Positions 3,632 to 24,380 of a stretch of DNA of 25,371 bases are shown here, in pieces. Source of the stretch: Acholeplasmatales bacterium (GTDB lineage Bacteria > Bacillota_I > Bacilli_A > Acholeplasmatales > Anaeroplasmataceae); NCBI GenBank assembly GCA_024696565.1, contig JAILGR010000012.1:1-25371 (forward strand). Direction: 5' to 3'. Position 1 is the stretch's first letter. The number at the start of each line of letters is the position of its first letter. The notes beneath the pieces were generated by a model that saw only the letters and a program-made list of their open reading frames with translations, was not told where the DNA came from and did no database searches. Position numbers and translations under genes: made by a program.

Positions 3632-3657
3632 AAAAAGAGTGATTGAGGTATTTTGAG

Positions 3658-5259
3658 ATGAAAAAATTAACAGGATTTTTAACAACGCTATTTGCAATAT
3701 TAGCTATATTTTTATTGGCTTCCTGTAACGATACAAGCAATGTACAAGTACAAATGTCTTCTATTGCGACAACTAAGTCAATTACAATGAATTTTACTTT
3801 TGCAGCAAATGATAAAATAACAAATGGTTCTGCTCAGCCACATGTAAAATATTATACATATGATGAAGAAGCATCAGATAATATTGGTTATTTTAAGCAA
3901 GATACTTATTTAGTATTTTCTGATACATATACATCTTCATCCGCAACATTTGATTCTTTAGATATGGATACAAAATATGTATTCCGTTTATATGTAACTT
4001 ATAATCAAGAAGAAGAATTAATTGAGACTTGGGTTTTATCAACTAAGAGTGGTGTTGCAACAGATATTGTTACAAAGGATCAATTATTAGACATTACAAA
4101 TGATCCATCTGGTTCTTATGTATTAAAGGCAGATTTGGATTTTGCAGGTGAAACAATTACTGCAGCATTATTCAGTGATTCTAACCGTTTCACTGGTACA
4201 TTTGATGGTGATGGTCATACTATTTCTAATTTTAAATATTCTTCATCTGTTCAAGGCTTATTTGCATATACAGATGGTGCTACAATAAAGAATTTAACTT
4301 TAGTTGGTCATACTGAAAATGAATTAGTTAATGGTGATTATACATCTACACAATCTACTAAGGATTTAGGATTAGTTGCTGGTAATGCAAAGGGCACATT
4401 ATTTGAAAATGTTTCTGTAAAGGATGCAAGCATTGAAGTAAATGGTGGAGCAAGTGCCACATTGAATGTTGGTGCATTTGTTGGTTATGCAGATGGTTGT
4501 CAATTTGTAAATTGTAAGGCAGAAAATGTTTCTGTTAAATTTGCAAAATTAAGAAACCGTGTTTGTACAGGTTTATTTGCAGGTGCTATTCTTGGTAATG
4601 TTAAAGTTAAAACTGATGACAAAACATTTACAGTTAAGAATTGTTTTGCAACAGGTGTATTAGAAGGTGTATTACATTTCGCATCTAATGTTGGTGCTGT
4701 ATATGTTGGTGGTTTTGCAGGAGATATTTCTTCTAGTGCTTTAGTAACTGACTCTTATACAGTTTGTGATATTGATTTATATAGAGATGAAACTTCATCT
4801 TATTCAAACGAATTCTCATTATCAGTAGGTAGCTTTGCAGGTGGTAAGGTTAATGGTACATCTATGTATATTACAAAGTGTGCTGCAGTTGCTGATATTT
4901 TAGTTCAAGCTGGTGCTAAAGATACTTCACTTGAAGTTGATGCAATGAAGGAATTAGAATTAAATCAAAAGTATACTTATGTTGGTGGATTCATTGGTGA
5001 AATATCTGAATATATTAATAAAATTGAAAACTGTGTTGCTTGTAAGAAAGCAGATGGTATTGTAATTAATGCTTTAGAATCTAAAGTTGATTCTGAGACA
5101 AGCCAAACTATTACATTAATTACAAAAGCTAACGATGTTGCTAAAAAGTATGATACTGCTAAGATTATAAATGTTGTTTATGCACAAGCTCTAGCTGATT
5201 TTGATACTACAGTATTAGCAAGCAATATTGCTGAAGTTTTAAATGGGTATTTAGCATAA
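3658..5259 (+). CDS. Surface lipoprotein with FN3-like and GLUG/beta-helix-like repeats
   Basis: The 533-residue product begins with a lipoprotein signal peptide: MKK, a hydrophobic stretch to about residue 19, then the lipobox LASC with the lipidated cysteine at C23. Residues of roughly 30-135 resemble a fibronectin type III-like sandwich (strand-rich, ending TWVLSTKSG). From about 140 onward there are repeated short strands of the GLUG/right-handed beta-helix type, for example FDGDGHTISNF, GLFAYTDGATIKNLTLVG, VGAFVGYADGCQFVNC, YVGGFAGDIS and YVGGFIGEIS. It should be anchored on the outer face of the membrane and may bind carbohydrate or another surface partner, but no specific function can be given. 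An upstream in-frame TTG at 3643 lies inside the likely Shine-Dalgarno (TTGAGG, 3643-3648), so the ATG at 3658 is chosen. It is the first gene of the operon; cysS follows after 19 bp without a terminator. Confidence 0.82.
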   Translation: MKKLTGFLTTLFAILAIFLLASCNDTSNVQVQMSSIATTKSITMNFTFAANDKITNGSAQPHVKYYTYDEEASDNIGYFKQDTYLVFSDTYTSSSATFDSLDMDTKYVFRLYVTYNQEEELIETWVLSTKSGVATDIVTKDQLLDITNDPSGSYVLKADLDFAGETITAALFSDSNRFTGTFDGDGHTISNFKYSSSVQGLFAYTDGATIKNLTLVGHTENELVNGDYTSTQSTKDLGLVAGNAKGTLFENVSVKDASIEVNGGASATLNVGAFVGYADGCQFVNCKAENVSVKFAKLRNRVCTGLFAGAILGNVKVKTDDKTFTVKNCFATGVLEGVLHFASNVGAVYVGGFAGDISSSALVTDSYTVCDIDLYRDETSSYSNEFSLSVGSFAGGKVNGTSMYITKCAAVADILVQAGAKDTSLEVDAMKELELNQKYTYVGGFIGEISEYINKIENCVACKKADGIVINALESKVDSETSQTITLITKANDVAKKYDTAKIINVVYAQALADFDTTVLASNIAEVLNGYLA

Positions 5260-5278
5260 ACTAGTAGTGGAGGATTTT

Positions 5279-6607
5279 ATGGGATTAGTTATTTATAATT
5301 CTTTAACTAACAAGTTAGAAGAATTTAAGCCTATAAATGGTAATAAGGTTAATATGTATGTTTGTGGACCTACTGTTTATGGGTATATACATATTGGAAA
5401 CGCAAGACCAGTAATATTTTATGATATGTTAAGAAGATATTTAACTTTCTTAGGTTATGATGTTACATATGCTTCAAATATTACTGATATTGATGACAAG
5501 ATTATTAATAAAGCAATTGAGGAAAAGAAAACAGAAAAGGAAATTGCTAAATTCTATGAAGATGCATATTGGGATTCTGTTTCTATGGTTGGTTCTAAAA
5601 AACCAGATTTAATTCCTCATGCTACTGAATATATTGGTGAAATGATTGATTTCATTCAAGAATTAATCAATAAAGGATATGCTTATAATAAATCAGGAGA
5701 TGTATTCTTTAGAGTTCCTAAAATTAGTGATTATGGTATTTTATCTAATCAACAAGTAGAAGAATTAAATAGTGGTGCTAGAATCTCTATTGATGATAAA
5801 AAAGAAAATCCCCAAGATTTTGCATTATGGAAGAATACTGATGTTGGTATTAAATGGGATTCTCCATTTGGTGCTGGTCGTCCTGGTTGGCATACTGAAT
5901 GTGTAGTTATGAACCATAAGCTATTTGGTAATACTATTGATATTCATGGTGGTGGAATGGATTTAAAGTTCCCACATCATGAAAATGAAATAGCTCAGGC
6001 TAAAGCTAATTATGGTACTAATTTAGCTAAATATTGGATTCATGTTGGTAGACTTGATTTAAATGGCGTTAAGATGTCTAAATCTTTAGGTAATGTTATT
6101 TATGTTAAGGATATTAATTCAACTCATGATGGTATGGTATTAAGATGTTTAATTTTATTTTCACCATATCGTTCTATGATTCCTTATTCTATGGATTTAT
6201 TTAATCAATATGCTAAGGAATATGATAAGTGGGTTAGAGCGTATAAACAATCATTATTTGAATGCCAATATCAAGGCGTTTTAACAGATAAAGTTTCAGA
6301 TTCAGATATTGAAGAATTTAAAAAATATATGAATGATGATTTTAATGTTCAAAATGTTTTAACTGTTGTTAATAATATTGTTAAAAGCTTAAATACTTTA
6401 TTAAGAGCAAAAGAATATGAAAATTTAGCTATAAAGTTACATACATTAGAAGTTATATTTGATGTATTAGGAATTAATTTATTTGTAAATAAGATGACAG
6501 AAGAACAATTAGAAGTTTATAAAAATTGGCAAGCTGCAAGATTAAATAAAGATTTTGAGGCAGCTGATTTATATAGAAATAAATTAGTAGATTGGAAATT
6601 ATTATAA
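5279..6607 (+). CDS. cysS: Cysteine--tRNA ligase
   Basis: CysRS charges tRNA-Cys with cysteine in the cytoplasm. The class I signatures are clear: HIGN at residues 38-41 and KMSKS at 265-269. The four zinc ligands that select cysteine are in the family positions: C29, C208 (WHTEC), H233 and E237 (PHHENE). At 442 residues it is slightly shorter than the roughly 460-residue enzymes of E. coli and Bacillus, ending soon after the ADLYRNKL helix, so only the far C-terminal tail is missing. A GTG four codons upstream lies at the Shine-Dalgarno GGAGGA (5269-5274), so the ATG at 5279 is preferred. The stop overlaps the mrnC start (TAATG). The cysS-mrnC pairing is the usual one in Bacillota; the lipoprotein before and ATPase after are not. 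Confidence 0.97.
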   Translation: MGLVIYNSLTNKLEEFKPINGNKVNMYVCGPTVYGYIHIGNARPVIFYDMLRRYLTFLGYDVTYASNITDIDDKIINKAIEEKKTEKEIAKFYEDAYWDSVSMVGSKKPDLIPHATEYIGEMIDFIQELINKGYAYNKSGDVFFRVPKISDYGILSNQQVEELNSGARISIDDKKENPQDFALWKNTDVGIKWDSPFGAGRPGWHTECVVMNHKLFGNTIDIHGGGMDLKFPHHENEIAQAKANYGTNLAKYWIHVGRLDLNGVKMSKSLGNVIYVKDINSTHDGMVLRCLILFSPYRSMIPYSMDLFNQYAKEYDKWVRAYKQSLFECQYQGVLTDKVSDSDIEEFKKYMNDDFNVQNVLTVVNNIVKSLNTLLRAKEYENLAIKLHTLEVIFDVLGINLFVNKMTEEQLEVYKNWQAARLNKDFEAADLYRNKLVDWKLL

Positions 6608-6996
6608 TGGACCCTATGCAATTAAACGGCTTATCCTTAGCTTATATAGGAGATGCTGTATATGAATTATATATTAGGGACTATGTAATTAAGCTTGGTT
6701 TTACTCAAGTTAAAGATTTACATAAAATGGTTGTTAAGTTTACAAGTGGAAACTCACAAGCAGACCTAGTTCATTATTTATTAGAAAATAATCTTTTATC
6801 TGAAGAAGAATTATCTATTTTTAAAAGAGGTAGAAATTCTCATGTCCATACATCTAGAAAGAATATGGAATTAAAAGATTATTTAGATGCGACTGGGTTT
6901 GAGGCTTTAATAGGTTTTTTATATTTAAATAATAATAAAGAACGTTTAGAAGAAATTATTGATTTATCCTTGAAGAAAGGGGGGAATGCTAAATGA
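6607..6996 (+). CDS. mrnC: Mini-ribonuclease III
   Basis: This 129-residue protein is a stand-alone RNase III catalytic domain without the double-stranded RNA-binding domain. The family signature AYIGDAVYE carries the catalytic aspartate (D16), and E99 in GFEALIGFLY supplies the second metal ligand. In Bacillus subtilis, Mini-III matures 23S rRNA precursor, and the same role is likely here. Length fits the family (about 130-140 residues). The ATG shares its A with the cysS stop, and its own TGA overlaps the ATG of the P-type ATPase, so three genes are translationally coupled. A methionine three codons later (MQLNG) is an alternative start. Confidence 0.93.
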   Translation: MDPMQLNGLSLAYIGDAVYELYIRDYVIKLGFTQVKDLHKMVVKFTSGNSQADLVHYLLENNLLSEEELSIFKRGRNSHVHTSRKNMELKDYLDATGFEALIGFLYLNNNKERLEEIIDLSLKKGGNAK

Positions 6997-9900
6997 AAAG
7001 TCCGAATCTTGATGAATTAACTGAAGAGGAATTAAAAGAATATTTAGCACAAAACGCCGACGAAGATTTGAAGGCTGATTTAGATGGTGGGGTGGAAAAA
7101 GAAGAACCTACTATCCAAATCGCAGAAGAAATCGAAATGCCTGCTCCTAAAAAAAGAAAACAACAACAAACTCAAGAAGAAAAGGAAAGAAAACGTCAAG
7201 CTAAAATAAAGGAAAGAGAAATTAAAAAAAGAAGAAGATATTTAAGAAAAAATCCTTCTACTTTAGTTCGTTATGATATTGATCCTAAAATGGGTTTGAC
7301 AAGCGAAATTGCTGAACAAAGAATGGTAGATGAATTGGTTAATAGAACTAGTAAAAAGTCTAACCGTAGTGTATTTAGCATAATAATGAAGAATATCTTT
7401 ACATTCTTCAACTTATTGATTTTCGTTATTGCAGGATTCTTATTCTGGCAAGGTGCCCCTATTACAGATTTTGTCTTTTTAGTAATTGTATCTATTAATA
7501 TTATTATTGGTATTATTCAAGAGATTAATGCTAAGAATATGATTGATAAATTATCATTAATGTCTGCCCCTACAGCGTTTGTTATTCGTGATGGTGTAGA
7601 ACATGAAATATCTATTGAAGATGTAGTTTTAGATGATTGTATTGTATTAGAATCAGGTAGACAAATTTGTGCTGACTCAATTGTTATTGATGGTGCAATT
7701 GAAGTAAATGAATCCTTATTAACAGGTGAATCTGATGCTATTTTAAAGAATCCAGGAGATCATTTGTTCTCTGGTTCTTATGTAGTTTCTGGTAAATGTA
7801 GTGCTAGAGTTGATAAGGTTGGTAAGGATAATTATATTGAGAAATTATCTCAAGAAGCTAAAAAATATAAAAAGCCTAAATCTGATTTATATGGTGCACT
7901 AAATAAGATTATCAAATTTATGGCTTTCCCAGTTGTTATTTGTGGTGCATTATTATTCTATGTTATGTATTCTAGAACTAATCCTGGTTTATATAGCAAG
8001 GAAATGCAAGAAATTGTTAGAAAAACAGCTGGTGCTATGATTGGTATGATTCCATCAGGATTATTCTTAATGTCTACTATTGCCCTATATATTGGTGTAA
8101 TTAAGTTAGGTCAAAAGAATGTATTAGTACAAGATGTATACTGTGTAGAAATGCTTGCAAGAGTAAACTGTATATGTCTAGATAAAACAGGTACTATTAC
8201 TGATGGTACTATGGTTGTTAAAAATGTAATTGATTATAATACTGTCCATGGTCTAGCTACTAGAAATGTTGTTTCAGCAATGCTAAATGCATTACAAGAT
8301 AACAATATGACGAGTCAAGCCTTAAAGGATAAGTTTGGTCTTGGAAAAAGAATTAAGCATAAAGCTTTAATTCCATTTTCTAGTTCAAGAAAGTTCCAAG
8401 CAGTTACTTTTGATAAATATGGTACATTTGCCTTAGGTGCTCCTGAATTTGTTTTAAAAGAAGATTATAAGAGAGTAGAAAAAGATGTTAATAAATATGC
8501 ATCTTTAGGATATCGTGTCTTATGTCTTGCTCATAAAGATGGAACAATTGAAGGTGTAGAAATGCCTGATGGTCCTATTGAGATTATCGCAATGATCTTA
8601 ATTGAGGATAACATTCGTCCTGATGCAATTAATACTATTAAATATTTCCGTGATTCTGGAGTTGAAGTTAGAGTAATATCTGGTGATAACCCAATTACTG
8701 TATCAAAAATAGCCTCTCGTGCTGGTGTAGACAATGCCGATAAGTTTGTATCTTTAGATGGCAAAACTGATAGTGATGTGATTAATGAAGTTAGAAAAGG
8801 GACTACTGTATTTGGTCGTGTATCCCCACAACAAAAGAGATTAATCATTAGAACACTACAAGAATTAGGTAAAACTGTTGCTATGACAGGTGATGGTGTA
8901 AATGATATTCTAGCCCTAAAAGAGGCAGATTGTTCAATTGCCGTTGCATCTGGTTCTCAAGCAGTAAGAAGTTGCTCACACTTAGTTTTACTAGATTCTA
9001 ATTTCGATTCAATGCCAAGTGTTGTATCTGAGGGTAGAAGAGTTATTAATAATGTTGCAAAAGTATCAGCTTTATTCTTAACTAAAACTATTTTCTCATT
9101 ATTCTTAGCTATTGAAGCACTAATTACAGGCTCTTATCCAATTGCAACAACTCAATTAATTATTATTGAAGCATTCGCTATTGGTCTACCATCAATTGTA
9201 TTAGTTAATGAGCCTAATAATAGGCCAGTTAAAGGTAAATTCCTTACTAATGTCATTAGGGAATCACTTCCTGGTGCGTTAGTTATTTTAGCAATATCTT
9301 TAGTAGTATTTGGTCTATCTTCACAGTTGAATTTAGATTCTATTTCAAGAACTACTATTATAGTAATTGCAGCTACTCATACATGTATGATGGTATTGTT
9401 TAAGGTATGTAAACCGTTCAATACTGTTCATAAGGTTTTATGTGGTTTCTGTTATTCAATGTTCTTATTCATTATATTTGTTTTACCGCAAATGTTAGAA
9501 TTAAGACCAATTACACCACTAACTGAATATTATTCTACTAAAGTACCAATTTCATATTTAACAAAATATCCATCTATTGAACGTAGTAAGGCTAATTATT
9601 ATGTAGTAAATGGTAAAGTATATTCTAATTTACCAAAGGATAGTATTAATTATCCTAATACTATTATCTCTGCAATAGGAGACAACGATAAATTATATTA
9701 TGCAATTGATGGTAGAAAGACTGATATTGAGGTTGCAAGACCTGACTTAAGTTATTCTGATACTGGTGTTGTTTATCTTGGCGGTTATAAGGTTGCTGAT
9801 GATATCGAATATAAAGATGATTTAAATATGACTATTGATGAATATGGTTATTTATATTGTGATGGAAAGCAAGTTAAGATTACATTAACTAAATCTAATG

Positions 9901-10892
9901 AAAAATATAATTATACATTAAAATATGATAACTATATTGCATCAAAAGCTACATTCCCATATACAGTAATCCCTAAGGTTACTATTGAAGATGGAGAATA
10001 TTTATTTGATGGTAAACGTCTAGATGAATTAAAATATAGTGTTTCAAATACATTATCAATGGATCATGAATTACATATTACTGTTGATGTTAATTCTTTA
10101 GCGTTATTAATCAATGGAGAACCAATTTATGGTGTTGATAAAAATGGTGAAAAGTCTCAAACACCTTATAAGGTTAGTCTACCTTTAGTTACAACTACTG
10201 GTATCAATAAGCAAATGATGCTAGAGGCTGCAGAAACAGGTAATACAGTATTTGATATTTATGGTGATTTAACTGATTTAATTAGTGATGTAACAGATGA
10301 AAAGACTATTTATTCAGCTGATGGAAAAGCAATCTCTTATAGTGCATCAAAAAATATGTTCTATGTAGATTCTGTTGCTACACCAGATTTCCAATTTTCA
10401 AATATTGGTACAGATGGCTTTAGTAAATATAATGATGATACTAACCAAAAGATTGTTGTATCTAGTTTATTAGTTAGTGCCTTAAATGGTGCAACACAAT
10501 ATTCCATTTATGATGGAGATATAGTTATTAATACAACATCTTCATTATCTAATGCCTTATATTCACCTGAAATTAAGGTTACAGAGGCTGGTAAATATAT
10601 TATTAACGGATATTATACTGAATATGCTTTCTCAAATGCGGCAATAAATGCTCATGTTGATGATAATAATTATTTAGTTTTAGGTTCAGTAACTACTGAT
10701 TATTTAATTAGTTCAGCAGACATTATTGAATTAAAAGAAGGTATGGTAACATCCTTACCTATTAATAGTTTAATATTCTTATTAATGCTATGCTTAGTTG
10801 CCGGTCCATTGATGAAATTATTACAAAATATGATTCCATGGATAATTAAACAAGCAAAGACTATTAGAGATTTATTAACAAAAATAAATTGA
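6993..10892 (+). CDS. CtpE-like cation-transporting P-type ATPase with large extracytoplasmic insertion
   Basis: The 1299-residue protein has a complete P-type ATPase core: actuator motif TGES at 244-247, phosphorylated aspartate D397 in CLDKTGTITDG, nucleotide domain, and hinge TGDGVND at 632-638. The core resembles the CtpE-like group, whose characterised member transports Ca2+; ion choice here is inference. There is no CPC or HMA motif, which argues against soft-metal export. TM4 reads MIPSGLF (P354, S355), where related calcium pumps often have PEGL. About ten membrane segments can be read: near 133-152, 156-177, 306-327, 346-372, two between 695 and 743, two more, one ending near 835, and a last one at 1258-1278. 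Two additions are odd: an acidic then Lys/Arg/Glu/Gln-rich N-terminus of about 95 residues, and a strand-rich domain of about 415 residues (838-1252) between the last two segments, predicted outside the cell. Start overlaps mrnC stop (ATGA), preceded by AAGGGGGG. Confidence 0.9.
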   Translation: MKSPNLDELTEEELKEYLAQNADEDLKADLDGGVEKEEPTIQIAEEIEMPAPKKRKQQQTQEEKERKRQAKIKEREIKKRRRYLRKNPSTLVRYDIDPKMGLTSEIAEQRMVDELVNRTSKKSNRSVFSIIMKNIFTFFNLLIFVIAGFLFWQGAPITDFVFLVIVSINIIIGIIQEINAKNMIDKLSLMSAPTAFVIRDGVEHEISIEDVVLDDCIVLESGRQICADSIVIDGAIEVNESLLTGESDAILKNPGDHLFSGSYVVSGKCSARVDKVGKDNYIEKLSQEAKKYKKPKSDLYGALNKIIKFMAFPVVICGALLFYVMYSRTNPGLYSKEMQEIVRKTAGAMIGMIPSGLFLMSTIALYIGVIKLGQKNVLVQDVYCVEMLARVNCICLDKTGTITDGTMVVKNVIDYNTVHGLATRNVVSAMLNALQDNNMTSQALKDKFGLGKRIKHKALIPFSSSRKFQAVTFDKYGTFALGAPEFVLKEDYKRVEKDVNKYASLGYRVLCLAHKDGTIEGVEMPDGPIEIIAMILIEDNIRPDAINTIKYFRDSGVEVRVISGDNPITVSKIASRAGVDNADKFVSLDGKTDSDVINEVRKGTTVFGRVSPQQKRLIIRTLQELGKTVAMTGDGVNDILALKEADCSIAVASGSQAVRSCSHLVLLDSNFDSMPSVVSEGRRVINNVAKVSALFLTKTIFSLFLAIEALITGSYPIATTQLIIIEAFAIGLPSIVLVNEPNNRPVKGKFLTNVIRESLPGALVILAISLVVFGLSSQLNLDSISRTTIIVIAATHTCMMVLFKVCKPFNTVHKVLCGFCYSMFLFIIFVLPQMLELRPITPLTEYYSTKVPISYLTKYPSIERSKANYYVVNGKVYSNLPKDSINYPNTIISAIGDNDKLYYAIDGRKTDIEVARPDLSYSDTGVVYLGGYKVADDIEYKDDLNMTIDEYGYLYCDGKQVKITLTKSNEKYNYTLKYDNYIASKATFPYTVIPKVTIEDGEYLFDGKRLDELKYSVSNTLSMDHELHITVDVNSLALLINGEPIYGVDKNGEKSQTPYKVSLPLVTTTGINKQMMLEAAETGNTVFDIYGDLTDLISDVTDEKTIYSADGKAISYSASKNMFYVDSVATPDFQFSNIGTDGFSKYNDDTNQKIVVSSLLVSALNGATQYSIYDGDIVINTTSSLSNALYSPEIKVTEAGKYIINGYYTEYAFSNAAINAHVDDNNYLVLGSVTTDYLISSADIIELKEGMVTSLPINSLIFLLMLCLVAGPLMKLLQNMIPWIIKQAKTIRDLLTKIN

Positions 10893-13488: not shown

Positions 13489-13510
13489 ATTACGCTGTAA
13501 TGGTATTTTT
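13487..13510 (+). terminator. Riboswitch-controlled terminator 1 of the purine leader
   Basis: CCATTAC (13487-13493) pairs with GTAATGG (13497-13503) around a three-base loop, followed by TATTTTT. Its first two bases are shared with the antiterminator, so it should form when guanine stabilises the aptamer. Confidence 0.8.
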
Positions 13511-13520
13511 GAATGCAATT

Positions 13521-13551
13521 AACAACATTAGTCGACCTAGTGTTGTTTTTT
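13521..13551 (+). terminator. Second terminator of the purine leader, just before purK
   Basis: AACAACATTAG (13521-13531) and CTAGTGTTGTT (13537-13547) form an 11-pair stem with one T-G pair and a five-base loop, followed by Ts to 13551. This is stronger than terminator 1 and ends eight bases before the purK Shine-Dalgarno. It may act as a backup stop or a second control point. Confidence 0.85.
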
Positions 13552-13568
13552 CGTTTTTAGGAGAAATT

Positions 13569-14654
13569 ATGAAAACAATTGGAATTATTGGTGGCGGGCA
13601 GCTAGGAATGATGATAGCTGAGGCAGCAAAGAAATTAGGTTATGATTCTATTTGTCTTGATCCTAATCCTAAGTGTTCAGCAAGTCATATTTGTAAAAAA
13701 GTAATAGTTGCTAAATATGATGATGTAGATGCATTAAATGAATTAGGAGAAGAATCGGATGTCTTAACCTATGAATTTGAAAATGTTCCTTCAGAACAAT
13801 TAAATTTCATTAAGGACAAATTCAATATTCCTCAAGGTATATTACCATTATTTGATTCCCAAAATAGAATTAGAGAAAAAACTAATGCTAAAGATAATGG
13901 ATTAAATACCCCTAAGTTTAAGGCAATCTATAATATGGATGACTTAATGAAGGGAATTGAAGATATTAAATTACCTTGTGTTTATAAAACAACTACCTTA
14001 GGCTATGATGGCCATGGACAAGTTGTAATTAAAACATTAGATGATATAGAGAAGGTAAAGCCATTTTTAAATGGTGAAGGAATATTAGAAGAATTTATTC
14101 CATATGATTTTGAAACATCAATTATTCTAATTAGATCTAAAGAACAAATAATATCTTTCCCAATGGGAATTAATAAGCATAAAAATGGTATTTTAGATTT
14201 AGTAGTAGTTAATGAAAATAAAGATATTTTTAAGAAAATAGAAAAAGCGGCTAAAGAATTTATGGTTAAAGCTAATTATTTTGGTATCTTAACAATTGAA
14301 TTCTTTGTTAAAGGTGATAAGTTCTATTTCAATGAGATGGCACCAAGACCTCATAATAGTGGTCACTACACTATTGAGGGTTGTAATGTTAGTCAATATT
14401 CAGAGCTTGTGAAATTCTTAGTTGAAGATAAGTTAGAAGAACCTAAATTATTATCTCCAACAATTATGAAAAATATCTTAGGCTTTGATTATCAAAATAT
14501 GAAAAAAGTTAAAGAAGATAATAATGTATATATTCATGATTATTTTAAAGAAGATGTTAGAGAAAAAAGAAAGATGGCTCATATAACATTTACTAATTTA
14601 ACAATAGATGAATATGATACAAAATATAAAAAATTATTTAGTGAGGAAAAGTAG
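13569..14654 (+). CDS. purK: 5-(carboxyamino)imidazole ribonucleotide synthase
   Basis: PurK uses ATP and bicarbonate to carboxylate AIR to N5-CAIR. The 361-residue ATP-grasp protein starts with the nucleotide loop IGIIGGGQLGMM, has YKTTTLGYDGHGQ in the ATP-binding region, and near its end the family signature NEMAPRPHNSGHYTIEGC. Length is close to the Bacillus enzyme (about 380). The ATG at 13569 follows AGGAGA (13559-13564); in-frame sequence further upstream belongs to the leader and terminators. It is the first gene of the operon under the guanine riboswitch. PurK needs a class I PurE mutase, and no purE lies beside it, unlike the common purE-purK pair. Confidence 0.96.
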   Translation: MKTIGIIGGGQLGMMIAEAAKKLGYDSICLDPNPKCSASHICKKVIVAKYDDVDALNELGEESDVLTYEFENVPSEQLNFIKDKFNIPQGILPLFDSQNRIREKTNAKDNGLNTPKFKAIYNMDDLMKGIEDIKLPCVYKTTTLGYDGHGQVVIKTLDDIEKVKPFLNGEGILEEFIPYDFETSIILIRSKEQIISFPMGINKHKNGILDLVVVNENKDIFKKIEKAAKEFMVKANYFGILTIEFFVKGDKFYFNEMAPRPHNSGHYTIEGCNVSQYSELVKFLVEDKLEEPKLLSPTIMKNILGFDYQNMKKVKEDNNVYIHDYFKEDVREKRKMAHITFTNLTIDEYDTKYKKLFSEEK

Positions 14655-14655
14655 T

Positions 14656-17600
14656 ATGGCAAAATATCGAATTTATGTGGAGAAAAAAGAAGGATTCCAA
14701 GTTGAATCAAAATCTATGCAAGCAGATTTAAACTTAAATCTAAGCTTAAATTTGAAAAATGTTCGCTTAATCAATGTTTATGATTTATTTGGTTTTTCTA
14801 AAGAATTATTAGAGAAAGCTAAATATCAAGTATTTGGCGAGATTGTTACAGATAATGTATCAACAAAATTAGATTTAACTGGTAAGAAGTATATCGCAAT
14901 GGAATACTTACCAGGTCAATTTGATCAAAGAGCTTCATCAGCAATTGACTGTGTAAAACTAATTGATCCAACTTGTGATATTAATATCCGTTCTGGAAAG
15001 ATTATTATTCTAGATGATGATACAAGCGATGCTACAATCGCTAAGATTAAAAAATATGTAATTAATGCAGTAGAAGCTAGAGAAAAGGATTTATCAGTCT
15101 TATCAGATTTAGAAAAGGCTAAGATTAATCCGGTATCTGTATTAAAAGGATTCACAAATATGAAAGAAGAAGATTATCCTTCATATTGTAAAGAATATGG
15201 TTTAGCAATGAATGCCGATGATCTTGGTTGTGTAGTAAATTATTTCAAAAGAGAAGGCAGAGATCCATGGGAGACAGAACTTAGAATCTTAGATACTTAC
15301 TGGTCTGATCACTGTAGACATACAACATTTAATACAATATTAACTGAAATTAAGATTGATGAATCATTCATGAAAAATGAATTAGAGGAATCACTTGATT
15401 TATATTATAAGATTAGAAAAGATTTAAATAGAGAATCTAAAAAGCTTTGTTTAATGGATTTAGGTACTATTGGTGCTAGATATTTAAGAAAGAAAGGCTT
15501 ACTTGATGATTTAGAAGTTTCAGAAGAAAATAATGCTTGTTCAATCTTTGTAACTATTGACGTTGATGGCGAAGATGAAAAGTGGTTATTACAATTTAAA
15601 AATGAAACACATAACCATCCAACAGAAATTGAACCATTTGGTGGTGCATCAACATGCTTAGGTGGAGCCATTAGAGATCCACTATCTGGTAGAGCTTATG
15701 TTTACCAAGCAATGCGTGTTACAGGTGCTGGTAATATTTATGCAGAAGTTAAAGATACACTAGAAGGTAAATTACCTCAAAGAGTAATTAGCCAAAAGGC
15801 TGCCGCTGGTTATTCATCATATGGTAACCAAATTGGTTTAGCTACTACTCATGTTAGAGAAATTTATCATGATGATTATGTAGCAAAGAGACTAGAGGTT
15901 GGTGCTGTAGTTGGTGCAGTTAAGGCTGATGTAATTAGAAGAGAATCACCTAAGGCTGGCGATATCATTTTATTACTTGGTGGTAGAACAGGTAGAGATG
16001 GTATTGGCGGTGCGACTGGTTCATCTAAAGAGCATACAACAAAATCTATTGAAGTTTGTTCGTCTGAAGTACAAAAGGGTAACGCTCCTGAAGAAAGAAA
16101 GATTTCTCACTTATTTAGAAGACCAGAGGTTACTAAATTAATTAAGAAATCTAATGATTTCGGTGCTGGTGGTGTATCTGTTGCTATTGGTGAATTGGCT
16201 GATGGCTTATCAATTGATTTAGATAATGTTCCTACAAAATATTCTGGATTAAATGCTACAGAGCTTGCAATTTCTGAATCACAAGAAAGAATGGCTGTAG
16301 TTATTGCTCCTAAAGATGTAGATAAATTTATTAAATATTGTCATGAAGAAAACATTGAAGTATCAAAGGTAGCAGTTGTAACTAAAGAACCTAGACTTGT
16401 AATGCAATATAAGGGTAGAAAGATTGTTGATATCTCAAGAGAATTTATTGATTCAGCTGGTGCTGATCATTATGCTAAAGTTTGTGTTAATGCAGTAGAT
16501 AATAAAAATCCATTCATCAAAGATAAGAAGATGAAGGTTAAAGATAGAGTAGAAAAGACTTTAACAGATAATAATGTAGTTAGCCAAAAAGGTTTAATTG
16601 AAATGTTTGATGCAACTATTGGAGCATCTACAGTATTAATGCCATTTGGCGGTAAATATCAAAAGACTGAAACACAAGTATCAGTTCAAAAGTTACCAGT
16701 AAAGGATCATTATACAAATACTGCATCAATTATGGCTTTTGGTTATAACCCATATATTGCAAAATGGAGCCCATATCATGGTGCTGAATATGCAATTATT
16801 GAAGCATGTGCTAAGGTAGTAGCTGCTGGTGCTAGATATGATAAGATGAGATTTTCTTATCAAGAATATTTTGAAAGAATGCATAATGAAAAATCTTGGG
16901 GTAAACCTCTTGCAGCATTACTTGGTGCTTTGAAGATGCAAAACGAATTAGGACTACCTTCAATTGGTGGTAAAGATTCAATGTCTGGAACATTCCAAAA
17001 CATTTCAGTTCCACCAATGCTAATGGCCTTTGGTATTACTACAGTTGATTCAAGAGTAGTTATTTCTCCTGAATTTAAAGGTGAAGGTAATAATCTATAT
17101 TTAATTCGTCATTATGAAAATCCTAATTACACTCCAAATATTCAAGAATTAAAGATGAACTTTGAATTTGTATCATCTAATATTGAAACAGGAAGAATCC
17201 TATCAGCTTATGCTTTAGGCTTTGGTGGTGTAATTGAAGCAGTAACTAAGATGAGCTTAGGTAATCAAATTGGTTTCAATATTTCATATGATAATGAATT
17301 ATTAGATGCATTTAATTATGGTTCTATCTTAGTTGAAACTAAAGAAGAATTAAAATTCCCTAATGCTATTTATTTAGGTAAGACAACAAATAAGAAAACA
17401 GGTGTATTCAATAAGGTTGAATTTAGCTTAGATGAACTTGAAGAATTTAATACTAAGAAATTTACTACTATTTATAAAGATAAAGGCGATAATAATTGTC
17501 CTTTAATGGATATTACTCCTTGTAAGAAGGAAGTAGAACTTCTAAAGAAAAAGAAAGAAGTTATTGCTTACTTCCCAGTCTTCCCAGGTACAAACTGCGA

Positions 17601-18354
17601 TTATGATACACAAAGAGCCTTCCAAAAGGCTGGTGCTAAAACAAAGAGCACAGTATTTAAAAATTTAACTAGTGATGATGTATTCAATTCTATTGATGAG
17701 ATGGCATCTAATATTGATAAATGTGATATTTTCGTATTATCTGGTGGCTTTAGTGCCGGTGATGAACCAGATGGTTCTGGTAAGTTCATTGCTAATGTAT
17801 TGAACCAAGAAAAGGTAAAAGATGCAATTCATCGTCTATTAGATAGAAAGGGACTTATCCTAGGTATTTGTAATGGATTCCAAGCTTTAGTTAAATCAGG
17901 CTTATTACCATATGGTAGACTTGGAACTGTTACAAAAGATTCTCCAACACTATTTAGAAATGATATCAACAGACACGTTTCTCAAATGGTTTATACAAAG
18001 GTTATGACAAATGCTTCTCCATGGTTATCAAGCTATAATACAGGTGAGATTCACGCTATTGCCGTATCACATGGTGAAGGTAAATTTGTTGTATCTGAGG
18101 CTTTAGCTAAAGAATTAGTGGATAATGGTCAAGTAGCATTCTGTTATACAGATACAGAAGGCAATATTACAGATAAGGCACCATTTAATCCAAATGGTTC
18201 TTCATATGCTATTGAAGGTATTATTTCTAAGGATGGTTTAATCTTAGGTAAGATGGGACATTCTGAAAGATATGAAGAGAATCTATTTAAGAATATTTCT
18301 GGTAATAAACAACAAGATATATTCAAAAACGCAGTAAATTATTTTAAAAAGTAA
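14656..18354 (+). CDS. purL: Phosphoribosylformylglycinamidine synthase, long single-chain form
   Basis: The enzyme converts FGAR, ATP and glutamine to FGAM. At 1232 residues it is the long form in which PurS-like, synthetase and glutaminase parts are one chain, as in many Clostridia and in proteobacteria, rather than the separate PurS-PurQ-PurL of Bacillus. Landmarks are [25 protein letters not shown] from residue 316, and a class I glutamine amidotransferase domain from about 969 ([10 protein letters not shown]) with nucleophile C1072 in GICNGFQ and H1139/E1141 in SHGEGKF. All catalytic residues are present. The start ATG lies one base after the purK TAG with GAGG (14643-14646) upstream; an in-frame ATG within the purK end would add 16 unconserved residues and is rejected. 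purC follows after 11 bp. Confidence 0.97.
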
Positions 18355-18365
18355 GAGGGATTATT

Positions 18366-19079
18366 ATGAAAAAAGAACTATTATATGAAGGAAAAGCAAA
18401 ACAAGTATATGCAACAGAAGATCCAAATGTAATTATTATGCATTATAAGGATGATGCTACAGCAGGTAATGGATTAAAGCATGCTTTATTTGCACATAAG
18501 GGTGAGTTAAATAATGCAATTACAACAATTATTTATGATTATTTGATTAAAGCCGGAATAAAGACTCATTATATTAAGACATTAAATGAAACAGATCAAT
18601 TATGTAAGAAGGTTCAAATATTCCCTCTTGAGGTAATAGTTAGAAATATAATTGCTGGATCAATGGCAAAAAGACTTGGTATTCCTGAGGGTACTAAGCC
18701 AAATAATACAATCTTTGAGATTTGTTATAAAAATGATGCCTTAGGTGATCCATTAATTAATGATCATCATGCAGTTGCAGTGGGAGCAGCAACATATGAT
18801 GAATTAAAAGTGATTTATGAAACTACAGCTAAAGTTAATGAATTATTAACTAAATTATTTGATTCTATTGGTGTTACATTAGTAGATTTCAAGGTTGAAT
18901 TTGGTAAAACAGTAGATGGTGAAATTGTATTAGCTGATGAGATTTCACCTGACTGTTGTAGATTATGGGATAAGAAGACAAACGATCATTTAGATAAAGA
19001 TAGATTTAGAAGAGACTTAGGCGATGTTATGGGAGCTTATGTTGAAATACTAAATAGACTTGAAAGCTTAAGAAAGTAG
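18366..19079 (+). CDS. purC: Phosphoribosylaminoimidazole-succinocarboxamide synthase (SAICAR synthetase)
   Basis: PurC joins aspartate to CAIR with ATP to give SAICAR. The 237-residue length is normal for the bacterial enzyme. Conserved stretches are [12 protein letters not shown] at the N-terminus, [25 protein letters not shown] in the middle, and [14 protein letters not shown] near the substrate site. The ATG is preceded by GAGGG at a normal distance. It sits between purL and purM, spaced 11 and 9 bp, in the same transcript. Confidence 0.97.
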
Positions 19080-19088
19080 GTATTAAAA

Positions 19089-20123
19089 ATGGCAAAAAGT
19101 TATGAAAGTGCCGGAGTTAGTCTAGAAGCAGGCTATGAAGGTGTAAAGCGTATTAAAAAGCATGTTGCTAGAACTAATAGATTAGGTTCTATGGGAAATA
19201 TTGGTTCATTTGGTGGTATGTTTGATTTAGCATCACTTGGATATAAAGAACCAATCTTGGTAAGTGGTACTGATGGTGTTGGTACTAAATTAAAATTAGC
19301 ATTTGAAATGGATAAGCATGATACTATTGGTATTGATGCTGTAGCAATGTGTGTTAATGATGTACTAGCTCAGGGTGCTGAACCATTAATATTCTTAGAT
19401 TATGTAGCTTTAGGTGAAAATATTCCTGAAAAGTTAGAACAGATTGTTAAGGGTGTTGCCGATGGTTGCTGCATGGCTGGTTGTGCATTAGTTGGTGGTG
19501 AAACTGCAGAAATGCCTGGTATGTATGGTGATGGTGAATACGATATTGCTGGTTTCACTGTTGGTTGTGTAGAAAAGGCAAATCTAATTGATGGTTCTAA
19601 AGTATCAAGTGGAGATGTATTAGTAGGTATCGCATCTACAGGTGTACATTCTAATGGTTTTTCATTAGTTAGAAAGATTATTAAAGATAATAATTTAAAT
19701 TTACATGAACCATTAACTGAATATTCAGAGTTACCACTTGGTGATTTCTTATTAACACCTACTAGAATTTATGTTAAACAAGTATTAGATGTAATTAAGA
19801 ACTGTGATGTTCATGGTGTTGCCCATATAACTGGTGGTGGTTTTGATGAAAATATTCCAAGAATTTTAAAAGAAGGTCAAGGAATATTTGTAGAAGAAGG
19901 CTCATGGCCAATTTTACCAGTATTTAAATTCTTAGAAAAATATGGTAAGGTTCCACATAGAGAAATGTTTAATATCTATAATATGGGTATTGGTATGGTA
20001 TTAGCTATGCCTGAAGCTGAAGCTAAAAAAGCTATTGATATTTTAGCTAAATATGGCGATAAGGCTTATGTAATTGGTAAGGTTACAGATAATCCTGGTG
20101 TAGCAATTAAATTGGTGGATTAA
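19089..20123 (+). CDS. purM: Phosphoribosylformylglycinamidine cyclo-ligase (AIR synthetase)
   Basis: PurM closes the imidazole ring, turning FGAM into AIR with ATP. The 344 residues match the family (346 in Bacillus). Recognisable segments are [46 protein letters not shown] and [16 protein letters not shown]. The ribosome binding site is weak (AGGT, overlapping the purC TAG), so expression may rely partly on coupling. The stop TAA is followed one base later by the purN ATG. Confidence 0.97.
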
Positions 20124-20124
20124 T

Positions 20125-20694
20125 ATGAAAAATATCGCAATATTTGCCTCAGGCAGTGGAACTAATTTTGAAGCATTAGTCAAGGCTTGTGAATCAGGCT
20201 ATATTGATGGTAAGGTTGTATTAATGGTTTGTGATAAAAAGAATGCTTATGTTAATGAAAGAGCTAAGAATCACAATGTGCCATCATTTGTCTTTAGTGC
20301 TAAGAATTATCAAACTAAAGAAGAATATGAAGAATTAATTGTTGAAAAATTAGAAGAATATAATGTTGATTTAGTATGTTTAGCTGGATATATGAAATTA
20401 TGTGGCTATGTATTACTAAAAAAATATGAAGGTAGGATAATCAATATTCATCCAGCCCTATTACCATCTTTTAAAGGTGCTCATGGTATTAAGGATGCTT
20501 ATGATTATGGTGTAAAGATATTTGGAGTTACAGTTCATTATGTTGATGCCGGAATGGATTCTGGTAAGATTATTGAACAAGCGGCGTTTCATATAAAAGA
20601 AAATGAAACTATAGATGAAGTTGAAGCTAGAATTCATGAAATAGAACATGAAATCTATCCAAGAGTAGTTAAAAATATTTGTGAGGGGAAATAA
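20125..20694 (+). CDS. purN: Phosphoribosylglycinamide formyltransferase 1
   Basis: PurN transfers a formyl group from 10-formyl-THF to GAR. The 189-residue protein starts with IAIFASGSGTNFEAL, and the catalytic trio is present: N107 and H109 in INIHPALLPSFKG, and D145 in VDAGMDSGKI. Its Shine-Dalgarno GGTGGA lies within the last codons of purM, and a single base separates the two genes. The 10-formyl-THF it needs can be supplied by folD, in the same operon. Confidence 0.97.
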   Translation: MKNIAIFASGSGTNFEALVKACESGYIDGKVVLMVCDKKNAYVNERAKNHNVPSFVFSAKNYQTKEEYEELIVEKLEEYNVDLVCLAGYMKLCGYVLLKKYEGRIINIHPALLPSFKGAHGIKDAYDYGVKIFGVTVHYVDAGMDSGKIIEQAAFHIKENETIDEVEARIHEIEHEIYPRVVKNICEGK

Positions 20695-20696
20695 AA

Positions 20697-22250
20697 ATGA
20701 AAAGAGCGTTAGTAAGTGTTACAGACAAAACTGGTGTAGTTGATTTTTGTAAAGGCTTAGTTGAATTAGGTTATGAAATTATTTCTACAGGTGGTACTAA
20801 AAAAGTATTAGATGCATCTGGTGTTAAAACTTTAGGTATTAGTGAAGTTACAGGCTTCCCTGAAATTTTAGATGGTAGAGTTAAGACATTACATCCAAAT
20901 GTACATGGTGGCTTACTTGCAGTAAGAGATAATCCTGATCATGTTAAGCAATTAAAAGAACATAATATTGAATATATTGATTTAGTTTGTGTTAATTTAT
21001 ATGCATTTAAAAAGACTATTGAAAAAGGTGCTGAATTTGCCGAAGCAATTGAAAATATCGATATCGGTGGTCCATCTATGCTAAGAAGTGCAGCTAAGAA
21101 CCATAAGTTTGTTACTGTTGTTAGTGATGTTAATGACTATGATAAAGTTTTAGCAGAAATCAAAGAATATGGCGATACTACATATGAAACTAGATTAAAG
21201 TTAGCTGCTAAAGTATATACTTTAACTGCTGAATATGATACAATGATTGCTACATATTTAAGAGAAAAAGCAGGCTTAGAAGAAAAATTATTCATTGAAG
21301 CTGATGTTAAACAAGAATTAAGATATGGTGAAAATCCACATCAAAGTGCTAAGTTCTATGTAACAGATAAGGATATGCCTTATTCATTAGCTAATGCAAA
21401 ACAAATTCAAGGTAAGGAATTATCTTATAATAATATTCAAGATGCTAATGCAGCATTAAATATTGTTAAAGAATTTGGTAATCAACCATTTGCTTTAGGC
21501 TTAAAGCATATGAATCCATGTGGAGCTGCAGTTGGTAAGGATTTAAAAGAAGCTTGGTTAAAAGCTTATGAATCAGATCCTGTATCAATATTTGGTGGTA
21601 TTGTTGCAACAAACCAAGTTATTGATAAAGAAGCAGCTAATTTAATTAAGTTTGATCATGGTGAAAAAGGTAAATCTATTTTCTTAGAAGTTATCTTAGC
21701 TCCTGGTTTTACAGATGAAGCATTAGAAGCATTTGCTAAGAGACCTGATTTAAGAATTATTCAATATAAGTTAGGAGATTTCCCTAAGACTAAACAATAT
21801 TTATCAGTAAATGGTGGTTTACTTGTTCAAGACTTAGATACTGAAATGAAAGAAGTAACTATGGATATGACTATTACTAATTGTAAGCCTACAAAAGAAC
21901 AATTAGCTGATATGAATTTTGGTTGGAAGATTGTTAAGCATGTTAAATCTAACGCTATTGTAGTTGTTAAAAATGGTGTAACTTGTGGTGTTGGTGCTGG
22001 TCAAATGAATAGAGTTGGTGCAGCAAAGATTGCTATTGAAGAAGCACATTCTAGAGGCGTTAAGGATGGTTTAGTATTAGCGTCTGATGCATTCTTCCCA
22101 TTTAGTGACACATTAGAGTATGGTATTGAAAATGGTGTTTGTGCTGTTGTACAACCTGGTGGTTCAAAAAGAGATCAAGATAGTATTGATCTAGCAAACG
22201 AAAAGAATATTCCAATGACATTCACTGGAATGAGACATTTTAAGCACTAA
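20697..22250 (+). CDS. purH: Bifunctional AICAR formyltransferase / IMP cyclohydrolase
   Basis: PurH performs the last two steps to IMP. The 517-residue length is typical. The N-terminal MGS-like cyclohydrolase domain (about 1-190) has SVTDKTG, ISTGGT and DGRVKTLHPNVHGG. The C-terminal transformylase domain has RYGENPHQSA, ALKHMNPCG with the catalytic Lys-His pair, and VVQPGGSKRDQD near the end. GAGGGG lies upstream of the ATG, within the end of purN; purD follows 13 bp after the stop. Confidence 0.97.
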   Translation: MKRALVSVTDKTGVVDFCKGLVELGYEIISTGGTKKVLDASGVKTLGISEVTGFPEILDGRVKTLHPNVHGGLLAVRDNPDHVKQLKEHNIEYIDLVCVNLYAFKKTIEKGAEFAEAIENIDIGGPSMLRSAAKNHKFVTVVSDVNDYDKVLAEIKEYGDTTYETRLKLAAKVYTLTAEYDTMIATYLREKAGLEEKLFIEADVKQELRYGENPHQSAKFYVTDKDMPYSLANAKQIQGKELSYNNIQDANAALNIVKEFGNQPFALGLKHMNPCGAAVGKDLKEAWLKAYESDPVSIFGGIVATNQVIDKEAANLIKFDHGEKGKSIFLEVILAPGFTDEALEAFAKRPDLRIIQYKLGDFPKTKQYLSVNGGLLVQDLDTEMKEVTMDMTITNCKPTKEQLADMNFGWKIVKHVKSNAIVVVKNGVTCGVGAGQMNRVGAAKIAIEEAHSRGVKDGLVLASDAFFPFSDTLEYGIENGVCAVVQPGGSKRDQDSIDLANEKNIPMTFTGMRHFKH

Positions 22251-22263
22251 TAAGGAGTTCTTT

Positions 22264-23511
22264 ATGGCTAAGGTTTTAGTTGTTGGTGGAGGAGGAAGAT
22301 GTCATGCAATAGTTCATGCATTATCCAAATCTAAGTATGTAGATGAAATATATGCCCTACCAGGCAACGCAGGTATTGCAAAGCTTGCAATGTGTGTTAA
22401 TATTAAAGATACTGAAGTAGATAAGATAGTTGAATTTGCAAAATCAGAAAATATCGATTTAGTAGTAGTTGGACCTGAAGCTTCTTTAGCTATTGGTATT
22501 ATTGATAAATTAGAAGAAGCAGGTATTAGAGCATTTGGGCCTAAACAAAATGCTGCTAGAATTGAATCATCTAAGGAATTTGCAAAAGACTTAATGATGA
22601 AATATAATATTCCTACAGCTAGTTTTAAATCATTTACTAATTATGATGATGCAATTAATTATGTTAAGGAAAATTCATTTCCTACAGTAATAAAATATGA
22701 TGGTTTAGCTGCCGGAAAAGGTGTAGTTATTGCTAATAACTTTGATGAAGCTAATATGGCATTAAAGGATATGCTATTAGATGACAAATTTGGTCATGGT
22801 AAGGTTGTCATTGAAGATTATTTAGAAGGACCAGAATTCTCTTTTATGTGCTTTGTCGATAGAGAAAATGTATATCCTCTTGAAATGGCACAAGATCATA
22901 AGAGAGCTTATGATAATGATTTAGGCCCTAATACAGGTGGTATGGGTGCATATTCTCCATTACCATTTATTACTAAAGAAGATTATGAATATGCATTAAA
23001 TAAGATTATGATTCCAACTGCTAAGGCAATGGTAAAAGAAGGCGTACCATTTAAAGGTGTTTTATATGGTGGTCTTATGAAAACTAAAGGCGGCATTAAG
23101 GTTATTGAATTTAATTGTCGTTTTGGTGATCCAGAAACTGAAGTGGTTTTACCTAGATTAAAATCAGATATTTATTTAGCATTCAATGCTATTATTGATG
23201 GTAAAGAACCAGTATTAGAATGGGAAGATTGTTATACTATTGGTATAGTTTTAGCATCAAAAGGCTATCCTGGGGATTACAAAAAAGGCTTTGTAATTTT
23301 AAATGCTGATTCAGATGATATCTATCATATGGGAACAAAAATAGATGATAATGGTAATCTTGTAACAAATGGAGGAAGAGTTTTATTTGCAGTAGCTAAG
23401 GGTAAGACTTTAGAAGAAGCAAATAAAAAAGCCAATATGTTAGTTGATGAAATTAAGTGTGATAACTTATTCCATAGAACTGATATTGGTGCTAAAGCAT
23501 ATAGAAAGTAG
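22264..23511 (+). CDS. purD: Phosphoribosylamine--glycine ligase (GAR synthetase)
   Basis: PurD joins glycine to phosphoribosylamine with ATP. The 415-residue ATP-grasp enzyme shows VVGPEASLAIG, KYDGLAAGKGVVI, the FKGVLYGGLM segment, and the C-terminal metal site NCRFGDPETE. One oddity is in the N-terminal phosphate loop: the near-universal GGREHA reads GGRCHA, with Cys at position 13 in place of Glu (codon TGT), although the rest of the protein looks intact. GGAG precedes the ATG. Its position between purH and folD keeps it under the guanine riboswitch. Confidence 0.96.
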   Translation: MAKVLVVGGGGRCHAIVHALSKSKYVDEIYALPGNAGIAKLAMCVNIKDTEVDKIVEFAKSENIDLVVVGPEASLAIGIIDKLEEAGIRAFGPKQNAARIESSKEFAKDLMMKYNIPTASFKSFTNYDDAINYVKENSFPTVIKYDGLAAGKGVVIANNFDEANMALKDMLLDDKFGHGKVVIEDYLEGPEFSFMCFVDRENVYPLEMAQDHKRAYDNDLGPNTGGMGAYSPLPFITKEDYEYALNKIMIPTAKAMVKEGVPFKGVLYGGLMKTKGGIKVIEFNCRFGDPETEVVLPRLKSDIYLAFNAIIDGKEPVLEWEDCYTIGIVLASKGYPGDYKKGFVILNADSDDIYHMGTKIDDNGNLVTNGGRVLFAVAKGKTLEEANKKANMLVDEIKCDNLFHRTDIGAKAYRK

Positions 23512-23519
23512 GTATTATT

Positions 23520-24380
23520 ATGACTGTAGTAATTAGTGGTAAGGAACTTGCAACTTTAAGAAGAAGTCAAATGAAAGAAGAAGTTGCTTCATTTGAATCT
23601 AAATATGGAAGACGCCCTCATTTAGCTGTAATTTTAGTAGGAGAAGATCCAGGTTCTGTTTCTTATGTTACTGGTAAGGAAAAAGCTTGTATCGAAATAG
23701 GTATTAAAAATACTACTATTAAAAAGCCTGATACTATTAGCCAAGCTGAATTATTAAATATTATTAATGATTTAAATAATGATCCTTTAGTTGATGGTAT
23801 ATTAGTTCAATTACCATTACCTAAACATATGGATTCTGATTTCATTATTAATGCGATAATACCAGAAAAGGATGTAGATGGATTTCATCCTCAAAATGTA
23901 GCTAGTCTATATTTAAAACAAAAAGGAATTGTATCTTGTACACCTAAAGGTATTATGGAATTATTAGATTATGCTGGTATTGAAATTGAAGGTAAAAGAG
24001 CGGTAGTTATTGGTAGATCTAATATTGTAGGTATGCCTGTTTCTAAACTATTATTAGATAGAAATGCTACTGTTACTATTTGTCATAGTCGTACAAAAAA
24101 TATAAGTGAAGTAACAAAACAAGCTGACATTTTGATTGCGGCCGTTGGTAAGCCACTATTCGTTAAAGAAGATATGGTAAAAGAAGGTGCTGTTGTTATT
24201 GATGTTGGTGTTAATAGAAATGAAGAAACAAAGAAACTTTGTGGAGACGTTGATTTTGAAAATGTTAAGAGCCATACCTCTTATATAACTAAGGTTCCTG
24301 GAGGGGTTGGACCTATGACGATTACTTGCTTAATGGAAAATACAATTGAATGCTTCTTAAAGCATATGGAGGAAAAATAA
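23520..24380 (+). CDS. folD: Bifunctional methylenetetrahydrofolate dehydrogenase / methenyltetrahydrofolate cyclohydrolase
   Basis: FolD interconverts 5,10-methylene-THF and 10-formyl-THF, the one-carbon donor for PurN and PurH, which explains its place inside a purine operon. The 286-residue protein carries the catalytic Tyr-Lys pair Y49-xxx-K53, DGILVQLPLPKH, EKDVDGFHP, the Rossmann segment VVIGRSNIVGMPVS, and the C-terminal PGGVGPMT. Length is normal. The ribosome binding region, AGTAGGTATTATT, is weak and resembles that at the purC-purM junction. The stop is followed one base later by purB. Confidence 0.97.
   Translation: MTVVISGKELATLRRSQMKEEVASFESKYGRRPHLAVILVGEDPGSVSYVTGKEKACIEIGIKNTTIKKPDTISQAELLNIINDLNNDPLVDGILVQLPLPKHMDSDFIINAIIPEKDVDGFHPQNVASLYLKQKGIVSCTPKGIMELLDYAGIEIEGKRAVVIGRSNIVGMPVSKLLLDRNATVTICHSRTKNISEVTKQADILIAAVGKPLFVKEDMVKEGAVVIDVGVNRNEETKKLCGDVDFENVKSHTSYITKVPGGVGPMTITCLMENTIECFLKHMEEK

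Follow-up and report, generated by a model that had tools for sequence, protein, structure and literature searches.

Organization of the locus and the pump

We analysed a window of 25,371 nucleotides (contig JAILGR010000012.1, assembly GCA_024696565.1) from a bacterium of the family Anaeroplasmataceae, order Acholeplasmatales. The window belongs to a metagenome-assembled genome of 1.28 Mb that is 85% complete. It contains a gene for a P-type ATPase with a large domain between its last two transmembrane segments (TM9 and TM10), preceded by genes for a lipoprotein, CysS and an RNase III-domain protein. The ATPase open reading frame (ORF) begins before the stop of the gene ahead of it, and the two overlap. 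The features are listed in Table 1.

Table 1. Positions in the window of the pump gene, its parts and its upstream neighbours
Feature	Position	Strand	Basis or remark
Lipoprotein gene	3643..5259	+	LLASC lipobox, GLUG motif; upstream neighbour, candidate partner
cysS, cysteine-tRNA ligase	5267..6607	+	syntenic
RNase III-domain protein gene	6592..6996	+	overlaps ATPase start; presumably mini-RNase III (mrnC)
P-type ATPase with predicted extracytoplasmic repeat domain	6993..10892	+	open ORF, ATG start, 1299 amino acids
Charged cytoplasmic N-terminal extension, residues 1-92	6993..7268	+	hydropathy and charge
P-type core (residues 93-836), comprising TM1-TM9 and the A, P and N domains	7269..9500	+	
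TM4 motif PSGL, residues 354-357	8052..8063	+	PEGL in CtpE (PMC5615198)
TM6 segment QLIIIEAFAIG with Glu726 and Ile730	9153..9185	+	
TM9, residues ~815-836	9435..9500	+	
Predicted extracytoplasmic beta-hairpin repeat domain, residues ~844-1255	9522..10757	+	
N-terminal double-hairpin repeat unit (P-x-I ... YVVNG ... YYAIDGRKTD)	9564..9743	+	self profile alignment, A6 search
C-terminal double-hairpin repeat unit (P-x-I ... YIINGYYTEY ... YLVLGSVTTDY)	10560..10724	+	self profile alignment, A6 search
TM10, residues ~1257-1279	10761..10829	+	

The catalytic motifs TGES (residue 244), DKTGT (397) and TGDGVND (632) place the protein in the P-type superfamily. Matches to PF00122 and PF00702 exceeded their cut-offs, TIGR01494 scored 234 bits against a cut-off of 62, and the P-type fold was recognized. 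Kyte-Doolittle analysis with overlapping peaks merged gave ten hydrophobic segments; by hydropathy only, this is the helix number of CtpE/P6 pumps. The ninth and tenth segments are spaced ~415 residues apart, leaving a loop of ~412 residues. Residues 838-1252 contain one Cys and three His. From hydropathy, flanking charges and the P-type fold, the TM9-TM10 domain (hereafter, ectodomain) should lie outside the cell. We regard this anatomy, a pump with an external domain, as highly probable.

The ectodomain consists of beta-hairpin repeats

An AlphaFold model of the isolated ectodomain was all-beta and confident (predicted local distance difference test [pLDDT] 83.7, predicted template modelling score [pTM] 0.75), with successive units of about three strands. 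Comparison of the ectodomain profile with itself revealed internal repeats at probabilities of 96.9% and 95.8%, whereas none of 20 column-shuffled controls exceeded 0.3%. The repeat unit spans ~51-78 residues, mostly 55-65, and comprises two hairpins, each with the pattern Y-x-I-x-G-x-x-T.

The ectodomain sequence had no accepted match in Pfam or among PDB sequences. Pfam searches returned 0 families for the window ectodomain at E up to 10, and for 28 homologues at E up to 1 they returned weak matches only (at most 3 members per family, best E 0.0061). Searched by fold, neither PDB nor viral models yielded a match to the model at E ≤0.001; Foldseek gave weak beta-propeller matches. No conserved site that might point to ligand sensing was seen in the ectodomain alignment.

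A search with the repeat unit (A6) beyond the family produced weak matches alone (E 6.2e-4 to 0.0075, three genomes), the matches inspected being those other than the ones in G093 and G157 and a 12,480-amino acid frame in G073. Three proteins from the order, two surface amidase-like ones and one collagen-like lipoprotein, each showed the hairpin motif once (L206, L207 and L208; types assigned by eye). Their hairpin, P-x-h-x-I-S-x-x-G-x-Y-V-I-N-G-x-x-T, is the same short motif (weak matches, E 1.1e-4, 6.2e-4 and 0.0073), present in single copies where the pump holds many; homology is not proved.

The ectodomain is apparently a lineage trait

Distribution was determined with an alignment of 28 ectodomains (A4) as the query. 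This search matched 49 of 55 genomes of the family, and in 48 of the 55 the pump carries the domain, although a few of these, e.g. G006, show just a fragment at a contig end. Beyond the family, the profile found no match in the 105 remaining genomes of the order or in the 379 genomes sampled from the phylum. In the orthologues sampled from the order's other families the loop had 8-18 residues, and when the phylum was searched with the pump core, the non-family frames among the matches listed were all ≤964 residues. Seven family genomes lacked the pump domain: the pump was cut at a contig end in G016 and G067 and was present as a fragment only in G074; no pump orthologue was found in G021, G065 or G030; and G032 holds the single family orthologue that reaches TM10 with a true short loop. 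The ectodomain is thus apparently a lineage trait of Anaeroplasmataceae, which are gut and rumen bacteria related to wall-less mycoplasmas.

The match in G021 was solely to an ATP-binding cassette (ABC) exporter of 697 amino acids (L167:8628-10721, minus strand). This protein has ~95 extra in-frame residues, ectodomain-type hairpins included, between Walker A and the next strand; ABC proteins aligned from 23 further loci, some of which are not true orthologues, do not have this stretch. G021 is a single metagenome genome, 64% complete, and the exporter may be a chimera.

These results bear on the description of the pump in an earlier note made from the sequence of the window. The note had reported a complete P-type core with an unusual, strand-rich, nearly Cys-free insertion at residues 838-1252, placed outside the cell. 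The core motifs were all found, the boundaries proved right to within about 6 residues, the topology supports the location, and the single Cys, the all-beta model, the short loops in other families and the lack of accepted Pfam, PDB-sequence or PDB-fold matches agree with the remainder.

Phylogeny and sequence evolution

A FastTree phylogeny was built from 78 pump cores, leaving out L166 (a duplicate of L115) and the partial sequences L116, L137, L150 and L151. The Anaeroplasmataceae-type ectodomain sequences formed one clade (support 0.996). Loop lengths in this clade were 290-303 residues in a basal group, then 318-353, 376-393 and 412-494; the loop of 8 in L115, which was kept in the tree, is a contig-end artefact. 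Outside the clade the loop measured 0-13 residues, L155 excepted, and the nearest short-loop sequences were placed with weak support (0.49-0.66).

L155, an Acholeplasmataceae metagenome pump, has a 255-residue insert in the TM9-TM10 loop. Because L155 groups with short-loop relatives (support 0.979 and 1.0), its insert was apparently acquired independently of the Anaeroplasmataceae ectodomain. The insert consists of eight units of W-x-L-N-G-x-x-T-x-I with some variation. A model of this unit scored up to 26.5 bits on 34 ectodomains (median 5.2) and at most 9.8 bits on shuffled sequences (340 made, 210 reported). These motif scores were rejected as proof of homology by themselves, since only 9 of the 34 ectodomains exceeded the best shuffle. 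When the insert was compared with the ectodomain profile, the score was 39.6 (probability 68%); the highest score among 100 shuffles was 20.6. The two domains are probably of the same repeat kind, as judged by these scores; homology is not proven.

The ectodomain alignment covered 34 sequences, omitting L155, L145 and all sequences of ≤1030 residues. Between the window and its nearest named relative, L086, identity was 39% in the ectodomain, 86% in the core, 47% in the lipoprotein and 83% in CysS; the values for L088 were 38.5% (ectodomain) and 84% (core). In the 14 closest pairs, the ratio of nonsynonymous to synonymous substitution rates (dN/dS) was 0.19-0.62 for the ectodomain and 0.04-0.13 for the core, several dS values being near saturation. 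The ectodomain is fast-evolving under purifying selection. It is acidic in 34/34 sequences (net charge -13 to -40), and Gly, Pro, Asn, Tyr and Thr make up most of its near-invariant positions, alongside a few Val, Leu, Ser and Asp. The nearest two protein clusters were 97% (P0002) and 57% identical to the window protein over residues 820-1299. Because a separate cluster is 97% identical, 48/55 family genomes carry the domain and dN/dS shows the above pattern, the domain is not a sequencing accident; it is a genuine, lineage-specific repeat domain on the outside of a P-type pump that is normal in other respects.

Ion site

TM4 of the window pump carries PSGL. We take Glu726 and Ile730 in TM6 to occupy the places of N796 and D800 in SERCA, matched by eye to the SERCA sequence. 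The Glu of a PEGL motif was absent from TM4 in 77 of 78 tree sequences, the exception being the outgroup paralogue L168. Ile stood at the TM6 Asp place in 71 of 78, and an acidic residue (Glu or Asp) at the SERCA Asn place in 77 of 78, i.e., in the whole clade except the outgroup. In published work, the TM4 motif of CtpE/P6 pumps is PEGL and Ile replaces the Asp of TM6; CtpE of Mycobacterium smegmatis is a 791-amino acid protein for Ca2+ uptake, and P6 ATPases have been proposed as family 23 (PMC5615198, PMC10654040). A TM4 without Glu together with an acidic TM6 residue suggests an ion site unlike that of CtpE. The earlier note had called the pump CtpE-like, which holds for the TM6 Ile and fails for TM4. 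Because TM4 has PSGL though TM6 has Ile, we describe the pump as P6-like and do not call it a P6 member.

Possible relationship with the upstream lipoprotein

The gene order cysS-RNase III protein-pump was common to the ectodomain and short-loop groups where contigs reach. An upstream lipoprotein match was present in 29 of 35 ectodomain-clade loci, at ≤0.9 kb from cysS in 28 of the 29 and at 1.65 kb in L113; the six loci without a match were mostly at contig ends. In short-loop loci the lipoprotein-cysS distance could be measured in 24 of 44, and was 2.2-4.5 kb in 22. Lipoprotein presence was rejected as a plain marker of the ectodomain because an upstream match also occurs in many short-loop relatives; adjacency and correlated distance remain.

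Mirror-tree tests were performed on 29 and 27 of the 34 sequences, those with long enough frames of the lipoprotein and CysS (and, for the smaller set, MrnC). After removal of core and CysS distances, ectodomain and lipoprotein distances were correlated, with a partial r of 0.339 in 29 taxa (0/2000 permutations) and 0.316 in 27 taxa (0/1000). Control values were 0.072 for the RNase III protein (190/1000) and -0.046 for an N-terminal stretch of the pump (693/1000). The test favours a link between ectodomain and lipoprotein; shared surface selection could produce such a correlation as well. The idea of the earlier note that the pump works with the lipoprotein of its locus thus receives weak support from adjacency and distances.

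Downstream, the window (13500-24380) holds, after metG, a long purine biosynthesis run of purK, purL, purC, purM, purN, purH and purD, followed by a tetrahydrofolate dehydrogenase/cyclohydrolase gene; these presumptive names rest in part on Pfam and NCBIfam matches.

Ectodomain and cell wall

A transpeptidase search gave 0 matches in the window's own genome, which is incomplete as stated above; the control search was positive in 10 of 14 genomes. Transpeptidase was found in 21 of 55 family genomes. Among the 48 ectodomain genomes it was found in 18 and not in 30, many of them incomplete, and the sole short-loop family member has it. By genus within the family (f1), transpeptidase occurred in 3/3 sampled genomes of g3, 11/11 of g6 and 6/27 of the window's genus, which may mix walled and wall-less species. 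In a published survey, 40-60% of Anaeroplasmataceae genomes were reported to have peptidoglycan genes (PMC10868615). Because 30 of the 48 ectodomain genomes are without transpeptidase and 18 are with it, the domain does not follow the wall. Wall binding, which the earlier note had offered as a role, was rejected as a general one.

Discussion

Taken as a whole, we lean towards a P6/CtpE-like pump whose repeat domain serves as an outward, partner-binding scaffold. The extracellular TM9-TM10 loop would have been enlarged by tandem beta-hairpin repeats in the ancestor of most Anaeroplasmataceae, and then lengthened through repeat gain. The membrane and cytoplasmic parts would transport an ion via the normal phospho-aspartate cycle, and the ectodomain, tethered at both ends on the outer side of the pump, would most likely act as an acidic scaffold that docks a surface partner, much as separate beta subunits cap animal pumps. 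The best candidate partner is the lipoprotein of the same locus. The partner role by itself is more tentative and, on present comparisons, falls somewhat short of probable.

Several points weigh against this scaffold reading. An upstream lipoprotein match occurs in many short-loop relatives too, usually at the 2.2-4.5 kb from cysS given above but close to it in two loci (L141 and L146), and because all ectodomain sequences belong to one clade, adjacency and ectodomain are confounded by descent. The correlation of distances is modest, the distances are near saturation, the permutations were not fully tree-respecting, and the controls include no second surface lipoprotein. Fold searches gave no identity for the ectodomain shape, its near-invariant positions are mostly turn and strand residues, as hairpins would lead one to expect, and mark no obvious binding or active site, and the model of the full-length pump was only moderate (pTM 0.52).

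The uniform acidity of all 34 ectodomains would also fit a module for ion capture or gating, which gathers divalent cations at the outer opening of the pump or stabilises a state of the transport cycle without any partner, and in apparently two lineages the TM9-TM10 loop of related pumps has come to carry a repeat domain. However, the mostly structural near-invariant positions include no conspicuous conserved cluster of acidic or His/Cys residues, acidity may be common among surface proteins of such genomes, and the pump lacks the TM4 Glu; we consider this explanation unlikely. A similarly low probability attaches to a surface adhesin, decoy or shield, in which the pump would anchor a fast-changing domain that meets fibre, host or phage. 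The contrast in identity between ectodomain and core in both L086 and L088, the variable ectodomain length and the weak hairpin matches in surface proteins of the order are in its favour, but dN/dS was below 1 in 14/14 pairs, and ectodomain divergence tracks one neighbour instead of being erratic.

Hairpin repeats might instead have spread with little function through an outer loop that tolerates inserts. The ectodomain-type hairpins that the G021 exporter carries in its cytoplasmic nucleotide-binding domain and the apparently independent L155 insert agree with such near-neutral expansion. Purifying selection, a confident folded model and the presence of the domain in all but one family orthologue reaching TM10 speak against it, and we give it the same low credence as the two preceding explanations. 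Far less probable than any of these is a wall-binding domain: the 18 transpeptidase-bearing ectodomain genomes indicate that some members may be walled, but the 30 genomes without a match, the window's own included, the transpeptidase of the sole short-loop family member and the absence of any wall-binding family match to the ectodomain in Pfam argue against it.

A bolder form of the scaffold reading is that the pump has internalised an external subunit: a self-made TM9-TM10 repeat ectodomain, gained apparently at least twice, would have co-evolved with the lipoprotein of the same locus into an outer-surface assembly. We find this conceivable but doubtful. The graded length series and the short-loop sister groups let one ask what effect an external cap has on a pump. 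The locus further points to a candidate pairing of pump and lipoprotein on the surface of anaeroplasmas from gut and rumen, and to a subgroup of pumps with an ion site departing from that of CtpE.

Comparison with known pumps

As described in the literature, CtpE/P6 pumps share with the window pump a P-type core, ten membrane segments and Ile at the TM6 Asp position; the window pump differs in having PSGL instead of PEGL, Glu/Asp at the TM6 Asn position and the external domain. Equivalogs of P2-type Ca2+ ATPases scored below cut-off (TIGR01517, 224 of 507 bits; TIGR01522, 188 of 798; TIGR01116, 187 of 703). Among the matches listed, the P2/P3 structures LMCA1, SPCA1, PMCA and MgtA showed 15-23% identity to the window pump; their chains have 768-1098 residues, and an extra loop of ~400 residues is not expected in them, judged by length alone. 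In the open-licence literature searched, we saw no description of a P-type ATPase that has a large external domain between TM9 and TM10. P-type pumps generally expose little protein beyond the membrane, except where a separate subunit provides it. External protein mass atop a P-type pump recalls the Na,K-ATPase beta subunit and the PMCA-neuroplastin pair. Those partners are separate single-span proteins, whereas the domain described here lies within the pump chain, between TM9 and TM10, and is made of hairpin repeats.

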